NCBI GenBank assembly: GCA_016930255.1
Contig: JAFGHB010000056.1
Location: 1 to 37,551 of the forward strand
Direction: 5' to 3'
DNA: 37,551 nt
Source of the DNA: Methanomicrobia archaeon
GTDB lineage: Archaea; Halobacteriota; Syntropharchaeia; Alkanophagales; Methanospirareceae
In this document: in pieces, positions 2,210-20,562 of the stretch
Layout: each line of letters opens with the position of its first letter
How positions within the stretch are numbered: the stretch's first letter is position 1
The notes under the pieces: model-generated
What the model saw: only the letters and a program-made list of their open reading frames with translations
Told to the model about the DNA's origin: nothing
The model's database searches: none
Program-made: the position numbers and the translations under genes

Positions 2210-3610
2210 TCAACCCCGCAACTGCTTCATCTTCTGTTTGCTTCGCTCGATGTAGTGCGGTGCTCCTATTTCCCAGCGGTTCCATAACGCGCCATCTATG
2301 CTTCTGATGCCGTCAAGCGATATCTCACGCGCCTCTTCTAGAGTGTCACCAATGCCCACGGTGCAGACCGTTCGCGATCCGAGCGCATACAACTCGCCAT
2401 TATCCCGTACCTCCATCGAGCCCGGATAGACACGCAAATTATCGCCGTATTTATCCGCCAACGCATATGCACCGCTCAAATCCACCTTCCGGGAGCCGCT
2501 GTGAGTCCTGCGGTAATCGCCATAGTCCAGCGGCACGGCATATGTCACCACCGACGCTTTCGGTAAGCATTCGACCCGTGATAGCGTGCCTTCGATCATA
2601 CGGAAGCAGATGTCCACGAAATCGCTCTTCAGCACGGGCAGGATGTTCATGATCTCCGGGTCGCCCGGCCGGCTATTGATCTCCAGAATCTTCGCGCCCG
2701 CGCGCGTGTGCATAAAGGCGACGTAAAACGGAATGCCCCGTAATCCATCATTCTCCGCCCCGCCGCTCAGTTCGTCAAACAGTCGCTGAACCAATTTCTC
2801 CTCCGCTTCTCGATCCTGCCGGGTAACAAACGGCAGCCAATCTTCCTTAGCCTTATAAGAGCCCATTCCGCCGGTGTTAGGCCCGATATCCGCATCAAAC
2901 GCGCGTTTGTAATCCCTCGTGTCCGGCAGAGCTGCGATTCGTTTACCGTCGCAGAACGCCTGGAAACTCGACTCTTCGCCCTCCACTTTCTCCTCTACGA
3001 GCACGTCACTACCGCTCTCGAAGATCGACCAGAAATGCTCGAAGAGCTGCTCCCGGGTATTGAAGTGATCGCCCCAGACACCGACGCCCTTGCCCGCGGT
3101 CGGCCTGTCCGGCTTGACCGCAACCTCATCCCCAATCTCATCCAAAAAGCTCCAGACCGCGGCCTTCACGTCGCTTACGTCGTTGTAATCGGTGCACTGG
3201 AACACTTTGAAGCGCGGATTCGCCTCGGGACAGCATTTCTCGATCAGATACCGCTGCCCGACTTTGCTCTCTTCGATCGCATATTGCTGCGTGGGACAGA
3301 TCATGGGCACGCCGGTCTTACGCTCCACGAGGTCGCGCACGCCCGCGATTATCGGCTTCTCGGGACCGCAGATGCCGAAATTAATCGCAGCCTTGTTCGC
3401 CTCCACGAAGTCGCAGATCTTTTCCACATCCAGGTCCGGAACGACCACGTGCTTCTCCGCATGCGCGACGTTAAACGGATTCTGCTGCTTGTCCGCGACG
3501 AATAACCGCACGTCGTACTCGTCGCTTCGACACAGCGCATCGATCATCGCAGCCGCTCTCGAACCGTACGAAATGACTAAAATCCCTACTTTCTCGCCTT
3601 CGCCACTCAT
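2210..3610 (-). CDS. purD: Phosphoribosylamine-glycine ligase
   Basis: A 466-aa GAR synthetase, second step of de novo purine synthesis (phosphoribosylamine + glycine + ATP to GAR). The N-terminal domain has GILVISYGSRAAAMIDAL, where the usual GGREHA motif is diverged to YGSRAAA. The ATP-grasp domain shows VAVKPDRPTAGKGVGVW, the family signature DIGPNTGGMGSY, and the metal/ATP-binding ILEINSRPGDPE. The length is slightly above bacterial PurD (~430) and normal for archaeal forms. No nearer start exists before GILVIS, so the ATG at 3610 is used. It is divergent from the prefoldin gene; the A/T-rich stretch 3612-3626 between them (tttatttatatg) could be a TATA element for either direction. Confidence 0.95.
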   Translation of the reverse strand: MSGEGEKVGILVISYGSRAAAMIDALCRSDEYDVRLFVADKQQNPFNVAHAEKHVVVPDLDVEKICDFVEANKAAINFGICGPEKPIIAGVRDLVERKTGVPMICPTQQYAIEESKVGQRYLIEKCCPEANPRFKVFQCTDYNDVSDVKAAVWSFLDEIGDEVAVKPDRPTAGKGVGVWGDHFNTREQLFEHFWSIFESGSDVLVEEKVEGEESSFQAFCDGKRIAALPDTRDYKRAFDADIGPNTGGMGSYKAKEDWLPFVTRQDREAEEKLVQRLFDELSGGAENDGLRGIPFYVAFMHTRAGAKILEINSRPGDPEIMNILPVLKSDFVDICFRMIEGTLSRVECLPKASVVTYAVPLDYGDYRRTHSGSRKVDLSGAYALADKYGDNLRVYPGSMEVRDNGELYALGSRTVCTVGIGDTLEEAREISLDGIRSIDGALWNRWEIGAPHYIERSKQKMKQLRG

Positions 3611-3694
3611 GGTTTATTTATATGTGGCAAGGGTCAAAGAATAAGTAACTGAAACTCGAAAGAGGAGTGAATAGGAAATAAAGAGGATATTAAA

Positions 3695-4072
3695 ATGAGT
3701 GGAAGTATGGAAATACCACCTCAAGTGCAAAACATGCTTGCGCAGCTCCAGCAGCTAAGGACTCAGATGGATGCGTTGGGACGGCAGAAGCTACAGGTAG
3801 AAGCCATGCTACGCGATGCGGAAAATGCACTGGAGGAATTGGAGAAGGTTGATGCCGATGCGCTGGTTTACAAGAACGTTGGCGAATTAATGATAAAAGC
3901 AAGCAAGGACGAGGTAAAAGAGGAGTTGGCAGAGAAGAAGGAGACCTACGGCCTGAGACAGAAGACCCTTGAACGCCAGGAGGAGCGAGGCCAGAAGCGA
4001 TACCAGCAGTTACAGCAGCAGTTGCAAGAGGCATTGGGCGGCGTTACGCAGCAGCCGACGAGCTCGGCATAA
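3695..4072 (+). CDS. pfdB: Prefoldin subunit beta
   Basis: A 125-aa protein with N- and C-terminal coiled coils joined by a short beta-hairpin region, the prefoldin beta architecture. Visible signs are the PPQVQNMLAQLQQLRTQMDAL heptads, the ELEKVDADALVYKNVGELMIKA hairpin segment, and a long Gln/Glu/Arg-rich C-terminal helix. Beta subunits form the hexameric cytosolic holdase with alpha subunits and pass unfolded proteins to the thermosome. A weak purine-rich RBS (aagaggat) precedes the ATG. In many archaea pfdB lies next to the rpl37ae-rpoP-pcc1 cluster; here that cluster is 10 kb away. Confidence 0.93.
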   Translation: MSGSMEIPPQVQNMLAQLQQLRTQMDALGRQKLQVEAMLRDAENALEELEKVDADALVYKNVGELMIKASKDEVKEELAEKKETYGLRQKTLERQEERGQKRYQQLQQQLQEALGGVTQQPTSSA

Positions 4073-4174
4073 TCCAATCACCGACGAGGCTTACATTTTT
4101 CCGCTCTCACTTCAGTTCCATTTATGGTATGGAGCTTATGCATATACTTTTAAGGCAAAAGAGGTAGCTTAAAA

Positions 4175-5683
4175 ATGGATATCCCGCTTGAAAAAATTCG
4201 AGAGGATGTATGGGAAGTCCCCCAGACATTTAGAGATTATATGCGCGCGCCAGCGCGGATATACGCTGCAGAAGCGCTTTTAGAGAAGATGCGACGTGAT
4301 CTCACGCTGCAACAGACGATCACAGTCGCTTCGCTGCCCGGCATTGAGAAATATTCGCTGGTTATGCCCGACGGCCACCAAGGCTATGGCTTTCCAATCG
4401 GCGGCGTAGCGGCTACCGACTTCGAGGAAGGCGTTATATCGCCCGGTGGTGTCGGCTACGACATCAACTGCGGCGTGCGACTCATTCGAACGAATCTGCG
4501 CGAGAGCGATGTCAGACCGCATCTGTCTGAGATAGTCGATGGGCTGTTTGAGTATATCCCCTCAGGACTTGGGCTATCGGGAAAGGTGCGCTTGTCATTC
4601 AGCCAGTTGGAGGAGGTGCTTCGTGGCGGTACGGAGTGGTGCATTGAGAACGGCTACGGTTGGGAGGAAGATGTCGAGCGAACAGAGGAAGGCGGACGAT
4701 TAAAAGCAGCCAACCCCGATAAGATCGATGAGAAATCAAAGCAGCGAGGTGCGCCACAGCTCGGCACACTCGGCTCGGGCAATCATTTCCTGGAAGTGCA
4801 GGTCGTGGACGAAATCTTTGACGAACGGCTCGCAAAGGCCTTTGGGATCGAGGAGAAGGGGCAAGTAACGGTTTTGGTGCATACCGGCGGTCGAGGCTTT
4901 TCACACGGCGTGTGCACTTACTATCTGCGAAAATTCGAACGCGAGATGCGGAACGATCCCGTATTGGCACGGATACTCGATTTAGAGCGGGAATTGGCGT
5001 GCGCGTATTTAAAGAGTCGCACGGGCATGGATTATTTTGAATCGATGTGCTCCTGCGCGAACTACGCGTTTGCGAACCGTCAGCTCGCAATGCACTGGGT
5101 ACGAGAGGTGTTTGAAGACACGCTGGGCAGGAAAGCGGAGGAGATGGAGATGCGGATGGTCTACGATATCGCACACAACATCGCGAAAGAGGAGGAGCAC
5201 GTAATCGAGGGCAAACGGAAGAAGTTATGTGTGCATCGTAAAGGCGCGACGAGAGCGTTCCCGGCCGGTGACGAGCGATTGCCGCCCATTTACCGCAGCG
5301 TTGGTCAGCCCGTGCTGATTCCCGGCTCGATGGGCACCCGCAGCTTTTTGGCCGTGGGCACCGAGACAGCCAAGGACGAAACGTTCGGAAGCTGCGCTCA
5401 TGGTTCCGGCAGAGAGATGAGCAGGACCGCGGCAATGCGGCAATATCGGGGCAGTGACGTGAAAGCAGCATTAGCGCAGAAGAACATACTCGTGAAAGCG
5501 CGCGAGCGCACCAAGGGAGACGTGCGGAAGAAGCGCGGCGTTCCGTTTGACAAGTACGGTGAGCTGGCCGAGGAAGTATCCGCAGCGTACAAAGATCCTG
5601 AGGTAGTCGTTCAGAGTTGCGAGACGTCGGGGATAGCGAAGAAAGTGGCAGCGTTCAGAGCGATAGCGGTAATAAAAGGCTGA
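4175..5683 (+). CDS. rtcB: tRNA-splicing ligase RtcB
   Basis: A 502-aa GTP-dependent RNA ligase that joins 2',3'-cyclic phosphate and 5'-OH ends, chiefly in tRNA exon ligation. Metal ligands expected for the family are present: Cys99 (GYDINCGVR), Asn203-His204 (GSGNHFLE), His236 (LVHTGGR) and His334 (DIAHNIAKEEEH). The guanylylated histidine corresponds to His409 in CAHGSGREMSR. VHRKGATRAFP and PGSMGTRSF are also conserved. No intein interrupts it. The usual HSGSRG is HTGGRG and the usual HGAGR is HGSGR, both mild changes. An RBS (gaggtag, ~4160) precedes the start. Its stop shares one base with the next ATG. Confidence 0.97.
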   Translation: MDIPLEKIREDVWEVPQTFRDYMRAPARIYAAEALLEKMRRDLTLQQTITVASLPGIEKYSLVMPDGHQGYGFPIGGVAATDFEEGVISPGGVGYDINCGVRLIRTNLRESDVRPHLSEIVDGLFEYIPSGLGLSGKVRLSFSQLEEVLRGGTEWCIENGYGWEEDVERTEEGGRLKAANPDKIDEKSKQRGAPQLGTLGSGNHFLEVQVVDEIFDERLAKAFGIEEKGQVTVLVHTGGRGFSHGVCTYYLRKFEREMRNDPVLARILDLERELACAYLKSRTGMDYFESMCSCANYAFANRQLAMHWVREVFEDTLGRKAEEMEMRMVYDIAHNIAKEEEHVIEGKRKKLCVHRKGATRAFPAGDERLPPIYRSVGQPVLIPGSMGTRSFLAVGTETAKDETFGSCAHGSGREMSRTAAMRQYRGSDVKAALAQKNILVKARERTKGDVRKKRGVPFDKYGELAEEVSAAYKDPEVVVQSCETSGIAKKVAAFRAIAVIKG

Positions 5684-6308: not shown

Positions 6309-8024
6309 TTAGAATAAACCGTAAACCCTAACCATTGCTTTGCCCTCAGGCATATCTACTGAAATATCTCGTGAAGGTTTTAAAGGATTATCTTTATATT
6401 TCCATTCTTGTGTACTTTTGTCCCCCTGATTCCAGTAAACCCCTGATGGCCAACGTTCAGGGATTTCGCGATTGAAAAAGACTGCTGTGCCAAAAACAAG
6501 ACATTTCCACTGCTTCGATGCACCAGCAAAACCGTGTCTCGCGAAATATGATTCACCGCAAGGCCCTTCACCTTTGGGATAGAAACAATGAACAAGATTT
6601 AAAACAACATCCACATCTGAATTGCGAAGATTTTTGTGCCTTAGCCCATAAGTGTCATAGCAGACACACATGAAATATTTGGTACCATTCAGCTCGAAAA
6701 TACGAGATTTGCCCTCCTCGTGGGATGAATAATTCTCGGCACGTTTAACAAGGTCTTTCTCTTGTGGCGCCGGATAAAACTTTCGTCCTATAGCTTCAAT
6801 GCCGCTTTTACTAACTGCAATACCTATTTGATCGTGAGCATACCCTTCTATGTCAACGCCCCCATCTATGCCTACGCAAACAATGATGTGCTCCTTAATC
6901 TTTCCAAGAATATCTTTTATCCGCTTTTCCACCCGAGCATATATCGCGCTTGGCTTATCTCTATCGGTGCAAAACCACCCACCAGGAAATAAAATAACTC
7001 CATCTCCAGACGTTTCTTCTGTAATACGATCTACAATTTGAAATAGCGCTTCCATCCGCCCATCATTTGAATAGTCCTTATCACTACCGGATTGGAGGAC
7101 AACAGTTGCCACCCAGCCATTCAACTCTTTTCTTCGGCATTCGATAATATTCTTGAATCTTGCAACGTCATCAGAATTATCTGGATCTAAGCTGCACCAT
7201 TGCATCTCCTTCGAGTAAAGTCTTACTGTTGGTTCTATATTCCCGGTTAACTCCGGTAGAAAATCTCTTAGCGCGTCATACCACGCACGCTGTTCATCCC
7301 GGTAAATAGGTTCGGGATCGTGTGCTGTGGTTTCATCACAAGTAGAAATCCATTGTGCCAACGAAAAGCCCGATTTAGATCTGTATGGGTAGCTAAGCAG
7401 AGCTATTTTTCGTGGAATTGTGAAATGTTGGGATTCATCAAATTCCACAACAAATCCCGGATTCGGAATGAAATAATCGCAGTTTGGAAGCATGTCCTTA
7501 TAAACAAAGTCTTTATTTCCCCTATAATTCTGAAGATTTACGAATATTCTTTTGAGATCTTCATAATATAGGTTATCTCTAAAATCTTCTGGTTTTGTGT
7601 CTGCATTAAATTTTGGATTTTTTTTTACATCTCCATAAAGCTTTTTGAGCATTGTTTCAACCGTATTTTTACACTCAGGGCATCTTTCGTTGTGTTCTTT
7701 TTCTATTGTCTTGATGACTTTATTTGGAGAAGATTTTGACTTACCCTCTGTTCTTGTTGTTTCTGTCAAGGTGTTTCGCTTGATATCAAACCCTAATCCC
7801 TTTAGAAAATTATTTGTTTCCTGACCGCCGTTAAACTCAGAAGGACTAAGCTCTTCCCCATTAACGAACTTATTGGCTAAAGATATTACATATTTCGGTG
7901 GATAGCGTCTCCCGTTAAACACGAGAACAAACTTCTTGGAAGATCTTCCGGGCGGAATCGTTCCTGCGTTAATTTCATTCAAAGCTTTCATCACATGTTC
8001 GTGAGCGATGTTCGACGGAATCAT
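6309..8024 (-). CDS. Putative defence protein: McrA-like N-domain + DUF559-like nuclease + nitrilase-like domain
   Basis: A 571-aa multidomain protein. Residues ~1-83 (IPPGRSSKKFVLVFNGRRYPPKY, GGQETNNFLKGLGF) resemble the N-terminal head domain found on ScoMcrA-type restriction proteins. Residues ~112-285 contain a lone CPEC and then D183 with E194, D196 and H200 (CDYFIPNPGFVVEFDESQH), the pattern of DUF559/Vsr-like PD-(D/E)XK nucleases. Residues ~303-571 look like a carbon-nitrogen hydrolase: Lys415 in GRKFYP and Cys455 in MCVCYDTYG match the catalytic Lys and Cys, but the Glu position is Gly348 (ILFPGGWF), so amidase activity is doubtful. It has its own promoter and RBS, stands alone, and is AT-rich between GC-rich housekeeping genes, suggesting transfer. 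The defence role is inferred from domain content. Confidence 0.7.
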   Translation of the reverse strand: MIPSNIAHEHVMKALNEINAGTIPPGRSSKKFVLVFNGRRYPPKYVISLANKFVNGEELSPSEFNGGQETNNFLKGLGFDIKRNTLTETTRTEGKSKSSPNKVIKTIEKEHNERCPECKNTVETMLKKLYGDVKKNPKFNADTKPEDFRDNLYYEDLKRIFVNLQNYRGNKDFVYKDMLPNCDYFIPNPGFVVEFDESQHFTIPRKIALLSYPYRSKSGFSLAQWISTCDETTAHDPEPIYRDEQRAWYDALRDFLPELTGNIEPTVRLYSKEMQWCSLDPDNSDDVARFKNIIECRRKELNGWVATVVLQSGSDKDYSNDGRMEALFQIVDRITEETSGDGVILFPGGWFCTDRDKPSAIYARVEKRIKDILGKIKEHIIVCVGIDGGVDIEGYAHDQIGIAVSKSGIEAIGRKFYPAPQEKDLVKRAENYSSHEEGKSRIFELNGTKYFMCVCYDTYGLRHKNLRNSDVDVVLNLVHCFYPKGEGPCGESYFARHGFAGASKQWKCLVFGTAVFFNREIPERWPSGVYWNQGDKSTQEWKYKDNPLKPSRDISVDMPEGKAMVRVYGLF

Positions 8025-8033
8025 CTAACTATA

Positions 8034-8077
8034 GCTCTCCCTTAGTTTCAATTTGTAAACAGGTAATATATTTTTTA
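8034..8077 (-). promoter_or_regulatory. Promoter and RBS of the nuclease-nitrilase gene
   Basis: Read on the minus strand, a TATA-like taaaaaatatatta (8077-8064) is followed ~25-30 bases later by a purine-rich RBS gggagagc (8041-8034), nine bases before the ATG at 8024. The element sits just after the rqcH stop, so the downstream gene need not depend on rqcH transcription. Confidence 0.5.
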
Positions 8078-8081
8078 CGCT

Positions 8082-10013
8082 TTATGGATAACTACCCTGT
8101 ATCCTCGACTTTCCCGGCGGCAGATACCTCAGCACTTTCTCGTACTGTGCTATCCGCTCGATCTCTTCTTTCCGGTCCTCTTTCGCGTTATCCACGAAGA
8201 ATTTTACAATCTCCTTCGCCAGCTCGTTCTTCTCCAGCTCGCCCTCCGGCGCCAGCTCCACGTACATCTCCATTTGCTCTTTCTGCGCCTCCGTTGCCGG
8301 CACGACAACCATTTTATCCTTCTTGATCCCGATACAGAGCCCCAACGCCGCTTTGAAGTACTGCCGTTTGCCACGCACCATGAACGCGCCTTTCTTGAGG
8401 TACTCGCCCGATGGCGGTGTCTTACTCACCTGTTCACCGCTCACGCAGTAGCATTCGCCCTCGTAGAACCCGTACTTCCAGAGCGCGGAATACGATGCGG
8501 CGAATTGCGCGATCTCCCGCAATCCCTCTTCGGAGATCTCTTTACCACCCGTCTTCGCAATCACGACGGGTGCGCCCTCCGCCTGTGTATGGCAAAAAAC
8601 GTCATTTGATGCCATGTACTTCTTCACCACGAGCTCATTGGTCGTGGCGTCCTTGCCGCCGATGACGAGAAAGCCATCTGAGGTCTCGAACCATCTGAAC
8701 TTCTCGTACCATTCCTCTTTTACGCGTACGACCTCTTCCTTCTTCTCCGGTAGGCGTTCTTCCGCTATTTCGACTTCTTTCGCCTTTTCTGCCTCGATTC
8801 GCGCCTTCGTCTCCTCGATCGCACGCTCGACGCCTTCCCGTTTCTTTCTGAACGTCTTCGCACGCTCGTAATATGCGCTCGCGTTCTTGTGCAACGAGAC
8901 TGAAGTATCGAGCTCAAGCTGGAGATCGGTGTCCGGGAGCGTCACGGTTTCCACTTTACGTTTCTTCGGCATCTCCTGTAGCATCGTTTCTAATTCGACA
9001 TACCGCGTATAGATCAACTCACCCTTCTGTATGCATTCCGCCTCCTTACGTTCAAATTTCTCGAGTGCGGCGAGCTGCTCTTCCAATACGTGCTCGTGTT
9101 TGCTGATGCCTTTCTCGTGCTCACTCTTCGCCTCCTCCTCCACCGCTTCTGCGAGCTGCGAGGTGAAGAACTCGTCAGCAGCTTCGTTAAACGAGTTGAA
9201 AAATTGTTTCTCCTTCTCATCATACGCATGCAACGCAAACGGAAGCACGTCCAGCTTCTCGTCGTGCGCTTCGAGCACGATCTGCGGTTTGAAGTGCGTT
9301 TTCTCCTGAGCAATAATCGGCGCTAAAACGGCTTTTAGTGCCGCAAAAAGAGCGCTTACTTCAGCTTCGGTGAGGTCGTGCGCGTTCTTGTTCTTCTCGA
9401 CACCTGCGTGTTCACAGATCTCCTCTGCGTATAACCCGCCCAGGCTCAATTCAGCCGCAAGAAGGCGCACCACGTCTTTATCCTGAGCTGCGGATCTACA
9501 GAGATCGATCAGATCGAGTTCACGCAGCGTCAACGTATTTGCGCGTGATGGCGGTCGCTCGTATCTCTTTCGCACTTTTAACTCCCGCGTTGCGAAGCTC
9601 TTCCGTCTTAACGGCAGCATGATATCGCCGTTTTCGTCAACGAGCACGAGATTGCCTCGCGGCAGTAATTCTGCAATTAATTTTGTCCGCGTATCCCACC
9701 GTTCGATCGTGAGTTCCACGATACGGTCAAAATCGAGCTGTTGTATCTGTGCGATCCGGCCGCCACTGAGATGTTTCCTGATGTACATGGCGAAGTTCGA
9801 TGGCATTCGCGGCGATGGCCGCTTATATTTGGTAAGATGAATTCGTTTACCCGCTTCAATGATCAAATCGAGTGAGCCTTTATCTTTTTGGTGGAGCTTG
9901 AGCCGTATCTCGTCCTTGCCGTGCTGATACGCTTTTACGAATCGCGCGCCCACGAGCTCCTGTAACTCGGTAACAATGGCTGCGACGTCCACACTGCTCA
10001 TTGAGTCCTTCAT
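8082..10013 (-). CDS. rqcH: RqcH / NFACT-family ribosome quality control protein
   Basis: A 643-aa homologue of bacterial RqcH and eukaryotic Rqc2/NEMF, which binds stalled 50S subunits and recruits tRNA for C-terminal tailing. The NFACT-N domain spans ~1-230 and includes the Asp96-Arg97 pair (QLDFDRIVEL) known to be needed for tail synthesis. A long charged coiled coil follows (~280-430), then the NFACT-R domain with WYEKFRWFETSDGFLVIGG and NDVFCHTQAEGAP. The C-terminus is basic and charged. All key segments are intact. It is followed on the same strand by the independently promoted nuclease-nitrilase gene. Confidence 0.93.
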   Translation of the reverse strand: MKDSMSSVDVAAIVTELQELVGARFVKAYQHGKDEIRLKLHQKDKGSLDLIIEAGKRIHLTKYKRPSPRMPSNFAMYIRKHLSGGRIAQIQQLDFDRIVELTIERWDTRTKLIAELLPRGNLVLVDENGDIMLPLRRKSFATRELKVRKRYERPPSRANTLTLRELDLIDLCRSAAQDKDVVRLLAAELSLGGLYAEEICEHAGVEKNKNAHDLTEAEVSALFAALKAVLAPIIAQEKTHFKPQIVLEAHDEKLDVLPFALHAYDEKEKQFFNSFNEAADEFFTSQLAEAVEEEAKSEHEKGISKHEHVLEEQLAALEKFERKEAECIQKGELIYTRYVELETMLQEMPKKRKVETVTLPDTDLQLELDTSVSLHKNASAYYERAKTFRKKREGVERAIEETKARIEAEKAKEVEIAEERLPEKKEEVVRVKEEWYEKFRWFETSDGFLVIGGKDATTNELVVKKYMASNDVFCHTQAEGAPVVIAKTGGKEISEEGLREIAQFAASYSALWKYGFYEGECYCVSGEQVSKTPPSGEYLKKGAFMVRGKRQYFKAALGLCIGIKKDKMVVVPATEAQKEQMEMYVELAPEGELEKNELAKEIVKFFVDNAKEDRKEEIERIAQYEKVLRYLPPGKSRIQGSYP

Positions 10014-16985: not shown

Positions 16986-17229
16986 TTACCCATTCCGTTT
17001 TTTCAAATTCTTGGCTTGTTTACTAATTGCTTTCCAACGCGCTTTTTCAAGTGCGGGCTTCAAAGCGAAACGTGCCTGATAGTTTGCAGATAAACTCGCC
17101 GTGCTCGCCACAGGCTATATAATTCCTCCGGTTCTCGCGGATTACCCGCATCGCGGAAAGACCCTGCTCCCGATACGATTCGAAATGCTGCTCGAAAAAC
17201 GAATCCCAGCCTAGATCGATTAAGTGCAT
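16986..17229 (-). pseudogene. rsgA: rsgA remnant with internal deletion
   Basis: The first ~58 codons encode the start of a ribosome-assembly GTPase RsgA/YloQ: IDLGWDSFFEQHFESYREQG, RVIRENRRNYIACGEHGEF and KLSGTFRFEA, i.e. the leading OB-fold segment. The frame stops at 17047. One base out of frame, the minus strand continues with PALEKARWKAISKQAKN and LKKRNG before a TAA at 16986, which reads like the basic C-terminus of RsgA. The whole GTPase and zinc domains (~200 residues) are missing between. The joint lies at about 17050-17056. The matches are from memory of the family. Confidence 0.7.
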
Positions 17230-17382
17230 GATTTCCTCTCAATTGAAGCATTAGAAGTACTCGTTACATAAATGTATCCTCTTCTTCGTTTCTTTGCTTT
17301 GCGAACGGTTGCATATACCGTTTTGCTGATAAAAGAAGTTGCCGAAGGCAATTTGAGCGGAGATGCGAAGCACTGTAGTCTT

Positions 17383-18531
17383 TTATTCGCTGTTATCTGA
17401 AGTGGTGCTCTGTATTTTGAGTTGTTCGATAGTTTCATCTATAAGAGTGATAATGCCATTTCCAAGAGTATTAAAAGTATTAACGGATTCCCCTCCATCC
17501 ATGTAAAAACTTGCTCTTCCTAATTCGGACAATTTAACGGCGATTTCGACTAAGTGATTCACTAGTTCTGATGGAAAGTCGAAAGGAGCACTGGAAGCAA
17601 TAATCAAAAGTTGCGAGCCAATGATAGCAGATTTGTTTTTTAAATCTGTAAGAAAGGGATTTACAAGTTTTTCGTCTTCTCCACCGTAAACTGACGTCCA
17701 TAGTGTCTTAAATTCAATTAGTTTTGTCAATGCGCCAGACTTCCATAGCTCTGGTTCTAACTGTAAACTAGTTATCAATAAGTCCGGGTTCTTAAGCCAA
17801 ACTCCATCAGCTAAGTTATCTGCCACTTTTTCCAACTTCTGCCTTATATTGTTATTGTGTTCAACTAATTTTTCAACTTCTTTTACAAGTTCATGTATCC
17901 CTTTCTCATCTAGAAAAGATAGACCTTTGAATGCAGATAAATCCATTATTTGTTCGATGTTTCTGGTATCTGATCGTAATCCTCCAGAATAAGATATTTT
18001 CACATTATAAGTTAAAGGTAATTCACTCATTTCGAAATAGGAAAATACGCCATCAAAAAAGGTTCGTATTTCATATCCTGGAGGTATTGAGCCAATTCCG
18101 TCCTTTAAGAGAGAGATATTGTTTATCTTTCCCCCTTTGCTATTCTCAAGTGGCGGTTGAAATGCCAGCTTGACATTCTTTGCAACACTTTTGCCTATAT
18201 TCTTTATAACGAAATATATCACATGCTTACCATAAGGAATGTCAAAGTAGGCAACTACATATGGTGCAACCTCGAGGTCTCGAGATTCTTTCATTTCCTT
18301 AAGAATCTCTTCCGATACCTCTGTTGATTTCTTTGAGGCAGAAGCAATCTGCCACGTTTTTATTACATATATGATCAAAGCGATTAGCGTTCCTATCTGA
18401 ACTATTGCAAGGATAATATCTATGGAGGATTTCGAAAAACCTTCAAAAACGTCTAAAAACCACCCAAAAATATAGAGAGGATAAAATAAAAAGGGAAGTA
18501 AAGCAAAAACCTCTATGATCTCTTTTTCCAT
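17383..18531 (-). CDS. Two-helix membrane protein of unknown function
   Basis: A 382-aa, AT-rich gene. Two N-terminal membrane helices (IIEVFALLPFLFYPLYIFGWFL and IDIILAIVQIGTLIALIIYVI) are followed by a short coiled coil (SKKSTEVSEEILKEMKESRD). A beta-rich segment comes next (VAPYVVAYFDIPYGKHVIYFVIKNIGKSVAKNVK), a pattern common in uncharacterised prokaryotic membrane-tethered proteins. The C-terminal half is helical, with a coiled coil around ELVKEVEKLVEHNNNIRQKLEKV. No enzyme motif is visible. It starts three bases after a 43-codon gene with a good RBS, so the two probably form an operon. Confidence 0.65.
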   Translation of the reverse strand: MEKEIIEVFALLPFLFYPLYIFGWFLDVFEGFSKSSIDIILAIVQIGTLIALIIYVIKTWQIASASKKSTEVSEEILKEMKESRDLEVAPYVVAYFDIPYGKHVIYFVIKNIGKSVAKNVKLAFQPPLENSKGGKINNISLLKDGIGSIPPGYEIRTFFDGVFSYFEMSELPLTYNVKISYSGGLRSDTRNIEQIMDLSAFKGLSFLDEKGIHELVKEVEKLVEHNNNIRQKLEKVADNLADGVWLKNPDLLITSLQLEPELWKSGALTKLIEFKTLWTSVYGGEDEKLVNPFLTDLKNKSAIIGSQLLIIASSAPFDFPSELVNHLVEIAVKLSELGRASFYMDGGESVNTFNTLGNGIITLIDETIEQLKIQSTTSDNSE

Positions 18532-18534
18532 TTT

Positions 18535-18666
18535 CTACCTCTCCAAATATTTCAATAATCTAAGCTGCTTTCTAAGCGCCATTTCGTATAACTCATATAT
18601 ATCCAAACCAGTTCGTATATTTAAGTTCGTAGATACCTCCCTCTGGACGATATCTCCATTCTCCAT
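18535..18666 (-). CDS. Small 43-aa protein upstream of the two-helix membrane protein
   Basis: A short gene too small for routine calling. From the ATG at 18666 the minus strand reads MENGDIVQREVSTNLNIR, then TGLDIYELYEMALRKQLRLL and KYLER before TAG. A clear RBS (GGTAGGAGAAAG) lies a few bases before the ATG. The stop is only three bases before the start of the 382-aa gene. The C-terminal two thirds look like a single amphipathic helix. No family is recognised. Support rests on RBS, spacing and sensible composition. Confidence 0.5.
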   Translation of the reverse strand: MENGDIVQREVSTNLNIRTGLDIYELYEMALRKQLRLLKYLER

Positions 18667-18864
18667 CTTTCTCCTACCCCTCTTTCCTTTCCACCCTTCA
18701 TCCCTTGCGCATTTGTGCCCTCGAACAACCTGTCCAAAGGAGTGGTAAGGTAATCCTGCATAGATCTTTATTACTTCCAGATGTATATATCTCTATCTGT
18801 TGTCGTCGAACTCTTATGCCTTCCTTTACAAAACTAACTGCACTTGTGGCCCTTTCTTCGCTTT

Positions 18865-19080
18865 ACTTTGTCGCCCAACGGTTAGTTAACTATTAGAGTA
18901 CTAACCTCTTTTTTATTGTATACATCGTGAAAAATGCTCGTAACCAACCAAAAGAGCGTTAGAGTGACGAAGCTGGAGAACTACGGCTCTGCTCTCTGAC
19001 CGCTTTACACAATAGAGATAAATCTGGGGCTACGAGTCGAAGAAAGCCCTGATGCAATACATAAAATGCTGACCGAAATG
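18865..19080 (+). repeat. Direct repeat copy A (degenerate) of 20657-20869
   Basis: About 215 bases that align with the promoter and 5' end of the gene at 20722. Shared stretches include aactattagagta, gaagctggagaactacggctc and agccctgatgca, with scattered substitutions and small indels. It lies 1.8 kb upstream of the intact copy, with two genes in between. Confidence 0.85.
18934..19080 (+). pseudogene. Truncated duplicate of the unknown gene at 20722
   Basis: The ATG at 18934 opens MLVTNQKSVRVTKLENYG, nearly identical to the intact gene's MLITNQKSVRITKLENYG, but the frame stops at codon 22. DNA similarity continues to about 19080 through frameshifts and then fades. Only the first quarter of the gene is left. 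It overlaps no real coding sequence and should not be annotated as functional. Confidence 0.8.
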
Positions 19081-19139
19081 CGTTCCATACCGTTTCCGAG
19101 TCGTTTGAAGAGACGACGATTCCTGTTTTCATGTTTGTT

Positions 19140-19775
19140 TTATATCCCCTTCTGTGCGACAATGACAACAAAACCTCCTTCTCCATAACCCGCTTTAACA
19201 GATTCAATAGCAGTCATTTCTTGTGGTAGTTTGAAGATTGTCTGACCGGTTTTGACGTCTTCAAGCTCCAATCTTTTCAACCAATCTAAAACTTGTTTGA
19301 GAGAATAAAAGGTGGCGTGCCTGTAGAATTTACTCTCTTTCTTCTTTGATTCATACAGTTTGCCAAGAAAACTCTCCTTGTCAATCAAACCTAGAATGAT
19401 ATATCCCCCAGGCTTAAGAACTCGTTTTGCTTCCCTGAGAGCTCGTAGAGGGTCTTGCACAAAGCATAAGGTTACAACAATCAAAACAAAATCAAAAGAA
19501 GAATCAGCAAACGGAAGTCTTTCCGCCTTTGCTTCATAGACCTCTATCCCTCGTTCCCGTGCTCTATCTGCCATTGCTTTTGCAGGCTCTACTCCAACGT
19601 TGATGCCGAGCGGAACTGCAAATCTACCCGTACCTACGCCAACCTCTAAACCGTTACTATCTTGTGGAATGAAAATCTTTAAAGCTCGAACCTCCGACTC
19701 ATAAGCGAATCTATTTGCATCAAACCATTCATCGTATTCTTGAGCATACTTTTCAAAGATTTCAACGCTCTTCAT
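19140..19775 (-). CDS. Class I SAM-dependent methyltransferase
   Basis: A 211-aa methyltransferase of the UbiE/Methyltransf_11 type. Motif I is GLEVGVGTGRFAVPLG, acidic motif II region is GVEPAKAMADRA, motif post-II is ERLPFADSSFDFVLIVVTLCFV, and motif III region is RVLKPGGYIILGLID. The ATG at 19775 (MKSVEIFEKYAQEYDEWFD) matches the usual N-terminus; an upstream start at 19805 is possible. It is AT-rich and lies, with the MBL-fold gene, between two copies of a direct repeat. Substrate unknown. Confidence 0.82.
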   Translation of the reverse strand: MKSVEIFEKYAQEYDEWFDANRFAYESEVRALKIFIPQDSNGLEVGVGTGRFAVPLGINVGVEPAKAMADRARERGIEVYEAKAERLPFADSSFDFVLIVVTLCFVQDPLRALREAKRVLKPGGYIILGLIDKESFLGKLYESKKKESKFYRHATFYSLKQVLDWLKRLELEDVKTGQTIFKLPQEMTAIESVKAGYGEGGFVVIVAQKGI

Positions 19776-19914
19776 ACTTTTTTCGCCCTTATTGAGCACC
19801 GCCAAATTGCGTAAAACGTTCGAGCTGATCTGATCGGAAGCCCTGCGAAGCAGAATTTGCGCGGAGTCCCCAAGACTCGCAGCCGGATACGCTCGGTTAT
19901 ACGAAGTTGTAGAT

Positions 19915-20562
19915 TCATAGTTCTATCATTTTACCTGCTCCACCTCTAACATATTTCTCTGGATAGCGTGACTTTATCTCTGACTTAAATTGAGTACAGT
20001 GAGTCGGACAGATAAGTTTTAAATTCTGAAGCAAACCAAAATCTCTGAATCCATGCAAACCCCCAATAATCGCATAAGGGTTTCCAAATTGTGACGCCGC
20101 ATCCAGAATACTCCCAACTCCCGGATGAGAACATCCTACGATCACGACAATTCCTTTTTCCATTTTGACCACAAGAGACTGCTCTGCTAAGGCACGTGGG
20201 GTCCTAAGTTCACCTGTAGAGAAAACATTTTCGTAGATTTTAATCGGCTCTTTTACCGCAATCACTTCTCTTGCACCACGCGGTTTGGGAGATGAGCCCG
20301 GAATATAAACTCTGACCGGATTTATTTTAAGAAAATCTGAAAGCCCACCAGTATGATCCAAATGAGCGTGAGAGATGATAATCACCTCAATCGTAGTGGG
20401 GTCTATATTGAGCTTTTCCATATTATGGAAAAGTATAGAACCATCTGCGCCTGTATCAAAAAGTATTTTCTTACCATATACCTCAACGAGACAAGAAAAA
20501 CCCCAGTCGGCTTTAAACCCTTCTTTTGCTACTTCGTTATCATAAACAATGGTAATCTTCAT
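19915..20562 (-). CDS. Metallo-beta-lactamase-fold hydrolase (dihydropterin-phosphate synthase-like)
   Basis: A 215-aa MBL-fold protein. Metal-binding motifs are ISHAHLDHTGG, VIVGCSHPGVG, GGLHGF and CPTHCTQ. The overall pattern (IVYDNEV at the start, FDTGADGSILFHNMEKL, GCSHPG, CTQ) is that of the MJ0301-like family that includes 7,8-dihydropterin-6-methyl-4-(beta-D-ribofuranosyl)-aminobenzene-5'-phosphate synthase. It is shorter than the ~260 aa usual there, so the exact reaction is uncertain. It precedes the methyltransferase on the same strand by ~110-140 bases. Confidence 0.78.
   Translation of the reverse strand: MKITIVYDNEVAKEGFKADWGFSCLVEVYGKKILFDTGADGSILFHNMEKLNIDPTTIEVIIISHAHLDHTGGLSDFLKINPVRVYIPGSSPKPRGAREVIAVKEPIKIYENVFSTGELRTPRALAEQSLVVKMEKGIVVIVGCSHPGVGSILDAASQFGNPYAIIGGLHGFRDFGLLQNLKLICPTHCTQFKSEIKSRYPEKYVRGGAGKMIEL

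Follow-up and report, generated by a model that had tools for sequence, protein, structure and literature searches.

A ScoMcrA-type head, a DUF559-like nuclease and an altered nitrilase-fold domain in a single archaeal gene

The window (the whole stretch of DNA that was analysed, 37,551 nucleotides) comes from an ANME-1/Syntropharchaeia-type archaeon. A complete head-nuclease-nitrilase fusion gene lies at 6309..8024 on the minus strand, as do all features of this gene given below. It consists of one intact open reading frame (6312-8024, stop codon 6309-6311) and encodes a protein of 571 aa. Neighbouring genes were named by eye as a convergent cytidylate-kinase-like gene on one side, with an RtcB-like gene beyond it, and a NEMF/Rqc2-type gene (8082..10013, minus strand) 57 bp upstream, the downstream side of which was found to be variable by comparison of relatives. 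GC content of the fusion gene is 40.5%, against 48.7% for the whole window. The 57-bp upstream gap holds a TATA-box-like AAAAAATATATTA (8064..8076), a putative promoter that was identified only by direct reading of the sequence. An AlphaFold2 model of the protein (mean pLDDT 87.5) contained three ordered domains and a flexible linker at residues 86-110 (7695..7769), which has pLDDT <50 and the highest dN of the four segments. NG86 dN/dS between the window gene and the copy in G227 was 0.17-0.21 in each of the three domains, showing purifying selection.

Residues 1-85 (7770..8024) form a ScoMcrA-type head. The head profile (A4) matched PDB 5zmm_A (ScoMcrA), residues 4-96, with E=6e-7. Matches from a tblastn search of the window protein against plasmids were confined to the head and fell on the heads of HNH endonucleases; the same search against phages gave zero matches. 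No Pfam family was matched by the head members. The function of this head is not established even in ScoMcrA (PMC6224610).

Residues 111-297 (7134..7694) were assigned to a DUF7255/DUF559-like nuclease domain using profile matches and motif conservation, with a predicted active site of D183, E194, D196 and H200 (7425..7478). Across 17 rows, E194, D196, E197, Q199, H200 and the motif R242-DE-R-A-YD-RD show no or almost no variation; within the A1 set D183 is conserved too. Alignment to DUF559 in hhalign paired D183, E194, D196 and H200 with the D / ExD / H motif (P=0.0023, controls at least 0.066). The window protein scored 16.1 bits against Pfam DUF7255 (E=0.009), below the gathering score of 27 bits. 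DUF7255 was detected in 8/8 A1 members, and its cut-off was exceeded by two relatives, L037 (42.6 bits) and L040 (28.7 bits), of which L040 also narrowly missed DUF559 (20.2 vs 20.6 bits). Pfam gave no HNH nuclease match in the window protein. A PDB fold search with the nuclease model yielded no match at E<=0.001 (best E=1.0), and its list of weak matches was rich in PD-(D/E)XK nucleases (Vsr, Cas4, Can2, PA-type).

Residues 303-571 (6312..7118) have the nitrilase fold. The top PDB matches of the C-terminal model in Foldseek all belonged to the nitrilase superfamily (Nit2 and others; E=3e-10, prob 1.00). The fold is visible by structure only, as the nitrilase profile gave no confident match to PDB sequences and the window protein has no match to Pfam CN_hydrolase. 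One CN hydrolase, from cyanophage P-SSM2, was matched in a fold search of a viral library. In the subfamily alignment, which includes a few near-identical row pairs, the canonical catalytic Glu position (G348, codon 6981..6983) holds Gly or Ala in each of the 24 relatives that span it, the catalytic Lys (K415, 6780..6782) is Lys in 25/25 and the catalytic Cys (C455, 6660..6662) is Cys in 25/25; Q399 and H479 are likewise fixed where covered. E422 (6759..6761) is Glu in 23/25 and, from its +7 spacing after the Lys as in nitrilases, is what we take to be the likely second active-site Glu. The Gly/Ala at the Glu site, the fixed Lys and Cys and a dN/dS of ~0.2 together mark a conserved but altered nitrilase subfamily, not a decayed one.

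A sequence-only reading of this gene had described the same three blocks, and each was confirmed, by the head profile match, the nuclease motif and the nitrilase-fold search, respectively. Its ScoMcrA-type N-terminal motif, its D183/E194/D196/H200 nuclease-like pattern (by conservation in relatives and the DUF559 alignment) and its replacement of the catalytic Glu by Gly348 with Lys415 and Cys455 kept (by the aligned Glu/Lys/Cys columns) were all borne out. Structure prediction with fold search, which it had proposed for all three parts, recovered the nitrilase fold and returned no significant fold match for the nuclease. Its term 'degenerate nitrilase' was misleading, Gly/Ala being the rule in the subfamily and selection being equal to that on the nuclease.

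Full-length relatives, 56-69% identical, were found in Methanophagales (G227/L011), Syntrophoarchaeum (G042/L012), Methanosarcinales MAGs (L014, L015) and a Woesearchaeota MAG (L013); most relatives are MAGs. Architectures were called by our own profile scan. The head-nuclease-nitrilase order recurs among relatives, alongside nuclease-nitrilase proteins with extra C-terminal domains (G247, G352, G198, G509, G533), head-nitrilase proteins without the nuclease (G068 and phage contig L055), nitrilases alone (G339, G331, G488, G474 and, twice, G458) and head-nuclease proteins with unrelated C-termini (G024, G008, G258, and a short version in G040). About a dozen loci join the nitrilase subfamily to the nuclease, and two join it to the head only. 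Architectures are spread over several clades of the nitrilase tree, which implies repeated swapping or loss of modules. In L040, which comes from an IMG/VR contig that also carries recombinases, head and nuclease precede a canonical CN_hydrolase (32.5 bits, cut-off 23.2) that keeps its Glu (FPE intact by reading). L040 is a distant relative of the window gene. Since the nitrilase profile (A5) fails to detect L040, the same three-part order was apparently assembled separately with two different nitrilase subfamilies.

Two in-frame repeats were noted in these proteins. One of ~85 aa (WDNVPGND... / WEKIPGND..., 43% identical) sits in two unrelated host proteins: in L014/L015 it lies inside the nitrilase domain, and in G024/G008 it is found in the C-terminal part of the head-nuclease protein (L014 9189-9446, L015 1880-2137, L028 2827-3081; also L005, L096 and L006). 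It is missing from the G258 relative and has the look of a mobile coding repeat of these archaea. The second, of ~65 aa, lies near the start of the nitrilase domain (L004 429-623 and L021 2212-2403; 53% identical, G026 vs G222) and is absent from the other relatives.

The family is carried by 11/58 genomes of the class, with several copies broken by stops. The fusion gene is downstream of NEMF both in the window and in G227, which belongs to another genus. In G005 and G001 an FAD oxidoreductase is directly downstream of NEMF, and in G002 this place is taken by a gene of no assigned family and a 1025-aa protein, the methylase part of which matches a PglX-like enzyme and TaqI and which is a predicted Type IIG/PglX-like enzyme. 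The site downstream of NEMF is therefore variable and can hold restriction genes. An empty site was demonstrated for the G227 copy only, from the adjacency of NEMF and FAD oxidoreductase in G005 and G001, because the window's genus shows no conserved gene order round NEMF and CMK. Across these ANME-type genomes the spot either was empty or held the fusion gene, a 124-aa gene common to G227 and G003 (53% identical), or the Type IIG-like enzyme; coordinates are L132 667-4907, L127, L128, L041 5762-9685 and L131 332-703. The FAD oxidoreductase beside it (L127 1779-3257, L041 5762-7240) is 93% identical between two genera with NEMF proteins only 65-76% identical to that of the window, and the comparison of these sequences suggests a recent transfer of its own.

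Horizontal transfer had been proposed for the window gene from its AT-rich composition, its own promoter and its place between housekeeping genes. Support was found for mobility of the family but not for a recent arrival of the window copy. Fusion proteins of the window and G227 are 69% identical and the NEMF proteins of the same genomes 65%, so the window copy, downstream of NEMF in both, need not be a recent arrival. Mobility of the family is supported by its patchy presence, the Woesearchaeota copy and viral or proviral copies. Phage genes were named by eye at both of the latter. On phage contig L055 (IMGVR_UViG_2189573022_000112, 3240-4310) the head-nitrilase gene is directly upstream of a small-terminase-like gene, and in G005, a genome of the same genus (contig C76, L126 484-768), a decayed nitrilase remnant lies between portal-like and large-terminase-like genes in a provirus remnant. 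Most head-nuclease-nitrilase copies stand alone amid housekeeping genes, and their neighbours vary between relatives and form no pathway.

The strongest new evidence is the linkage of the nitrilase genes to two other gene families. A GIY-YIG gene directly adjoins the nitrilase gene in G474, G467 and G068, is one gene off in G458 and is about 8 kb away in G488; the Pfam GIY-YIG cut-off was passed in L045, L090 and L093. An OGG-like DNA glycosylase adjoins a nitrilase or nuclease-nitrilase gene at 6/7 of its places, namely in G458 (two loci), G427 (both sides), G352 and G247, with the G427 copy at 27.3 bits against a PF21790 cut-off of 27. The rough binomial chance of such adjacency, ignoring shared ancestry, was 1e-14 for the OGG-like glycosylase and 1e-8 for GIY-YIG. 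OGG-like links were spread over three clades of the nitrilase tree and GIY-YIG links over two. No OGG-like homologue was found in the window's genome (G000), G227 or G042. Enrichment near defence genes had been suggested as a test of the gene's role. In general form it was not seen with PADLOC, which gave 96 families at 1e-8 in the flanks (135 genes, 23 loci) and 110 in control regions (136 genes) taken from seven of these genomes; the specific GIY-YIG and OGG-like links are very strong.

The nitrilase of G427 carries an additional fused domain, a homologue of which (59% identical) is encoded on its own nearby at G334, and a similar-looking gene stands by the G530 copy. The nitrilase-family genes and the OGG-like genes that flank them lie at L093 6321-9490, L094 7379-9193 and L095 5796-9687, and the order in G458 is glycosylase, nitrilase, small gene, GIY-YIG. 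Together the OGG-like glycosylase and nitrilase-family genes are a candidate multi-gene system in their own right. At the G488 locus (L089 7148-12641) a QueC-like gene and the nitrilase gene overlap, and TGT-family and QueD-like genes are nearby. This cluster recalls those for 7-deazaguanine DNA modification (PMC6884629) and is a possible island of this kind in a methanogen-related archaeon; a PLD-helicase-DUF3427 gene lies upstream at the same locus, which also includes a P-loop-type gene. The OGG-like and Dpd-like links are suggestive, though no proof, of a nitrilase fold that handles a modified base. The Dpd-like setting was seen in G488 only, and no TGT match of G000 is on the window's contig (C56). 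On contig C52 of G000 (3329-4477) there is an extra 403-aa TGT (400.8 bits), beyond the expected archaeal-type matches in open frames of 506 and 613 aa, which is possibly a bacterial-type enzyme.

We found no paper describing the head-nuclease-nitrilase combination in the open literature (subscription papers and most preprints lay outside the search), which within that scope upholds the earlier statement that no described system has this order; the order is, however, not peculiar to the window gene, as it recurs in relatives. ScoMcrA (Sco4631), a type IV modification-dependent restriction endonuclease, has a homologous, flexibly attached N-terminal head (PMC6224610). The window protein differs from it in having no recognised SBD, SRA or HNH domain, another type of nuclease and an added nitrilase domain; no SBD or SRA modification-binding domain was matched by Pfam, and residues 111-571 are occupied by nuclease and nitrilase. 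DRT1 (RT-UG5-nitrilase), from a defence setting, is likewise a single chain that ends in a nitrilase-fold domain, but the window protein has neither its reverse transcriptase nor the catalytic Glu, and has a nuclease and a head instead. With the Vsr-like DUF559 and DUF7255 nuclease-like families it shares the D / ExD / H motif, from which it departs by a large insert that separates the motif from the C-terminal strand and by scores below gathering. In Brig1 and Brig3-BapA a DNA glycosylase gene is the counterpart of the glycosylase paired with the nitrilase-gene relatives, brig3 being paired with a hydrolase gene (PMC11078745, PMC13160076), and Brig3-BapA is a precedent for a glycosylase paired with a base-unmasking hydrolase (PMC13160076); the glycosylase here is OGG-like and is missing from the window's genome. 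Likeness to Dpd 7-deazaguanine systems is limited to the one locus in G488 and is not near the window gene. The fusion thus falls outside the ScoMcrA-type enzymes (it lacks SBD, SRA and HNH), DRT1 (it lacks the RT and an intact tetrad) and the canonical nitrilases (it lacks the Glu). What is new is the combination of known defence parts with an unusual nitrilase subfamily and the shuffling of modules among relatives.

We lean towards reading the fusion as a single-gene, type IV-like DNA restriction or defence protein in which the nitrilase-fold module licenses the nuclease. In the mechanism that we infer, the flexible ScoMcrA-type head would help to find or discriminate DNA, and the DUF559-like domain would cut it. 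The C-terminal domain would oligomerise as nitrilases do and would bind a small molecule or a modified base, possibly still reacting via Cys455/Lys415, and this binding would license cutting. A restriction role is favoured by the restriction-enzyme head, the nuclease motif, the GIY-YIG and OGG-like links, the apparently separate L040 fusion, the patchy, decaying and viral copies, the variable NEMF site and the low dN/dS. Against it count the PADLOC result, the solitary housekeeping settings, the lack of a significant nuclease fold match and the state of knowledge of the head in ScoMcrA itself. Some copies are nitrilase-alone or head-nitrilase proteins, so a fused nuclease need not be the only means by which the nitrilase acts.

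This last point also bears on the main rival, in which the nitrilase is the effector: invader DNA bound by head or nuclease would trigger oligomerisation, and attack on an essential metabolite would lead to abortive infection. The nitrilase of DRT1 is such an effector (PMC13275509), Lys and Cys are fixed here, and a weak match to the PADLOC RT_UG5-nitrilase profile was obtained (E=0.01, only profile positions 742-803 of 907). DRT1, however, has an intact catalytic tetrad and requires nitrilase activity, the Glu is absent from all relatives that cover its position here, and nuclease partners are retained by unfused nitrilase copies; we consider an effector of this kind unlikely. Loss of the general-base Glu throughout would also suit a catalytically dead domain, a scaffold or ligand sensor whose sole part would be to oligomerise and gate the nuclease. 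A pure scaffold needs neither the invariant Lys and Cys nor the nearly invariant E422, and selection is not relaxed relative to the nuclease, which leaves a dead domain rather unlikely. A covalent or altered-chemistry sensor role is possible and overlaps the licensing explanation that we prefer.

The gene might instead be mainly element-borne, serving competition between viruses or proviruses and other viruses or a homing-like function, and be stranded in chromosomes. Most copies are chromosomal, amid housekeeping genes and under purifying selection, and competition between elements would still be a defence role; this origin is improbable despite the L055 copy next to its small-terminase-like gene, the G005 remnant between portal- and terminase-like genes and the recombinases on the IMG/VR contig of L040. 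An ordinary carbon-nitrogen hydrolase in an accidental fusion would fit the housekeeping neighbours in the window. The differing neighbours of relatives, which make up no pathway, the repeated nuclease links and the subfamily-wide absence of the Glu make it very improbable.

The repeated pairing of the altered nitrilase with nucleases and DNA glycosylases among relatives points to an undescribed kind of anti-virus DNA restriction. A wider and more speculative proposal, which we put forward tentatively, is a whole undescribed family of DNA-modification-directed defence. Its Glu-less nitrilase fold would read or process an amide- or nitrile-bearing base (e.g. 7-deazaguanine, carbamoylmethyl-type) with interchangeable partners, namely the fused DUF559-like nuclease, the GIY-YIG nuclease, the OGG-like glycosylase and, for specificity, the ScoMcrA head. 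Hardly any nitrilases are known from immunity; the characterised case is DRT1, whose authors stress the missing precedent (PMC13275509). If the restriction reading is true, the fold would have entered defence by a second route, through a conserved Glu-less nitrilase subfamily linked with nucleases and a DNA glycosylase, and two questions would become testable, the role of the ScoMcrA head and the chemistry or ligand of a Glu-less nitrilase that keeps Cys and Lys.

Two other places in the window were noted. A second AT-rich stretch between housekeeping genes (17001-20000, 36-43% GC) contains genes for a membrane-like, a methyltransferase-like and a metallo-beta-lactamase-like protein. A small gene at 866-1294, which reads as a putative ASCH/PUA-type protein, adjoins an acetyltransferase-like gene.
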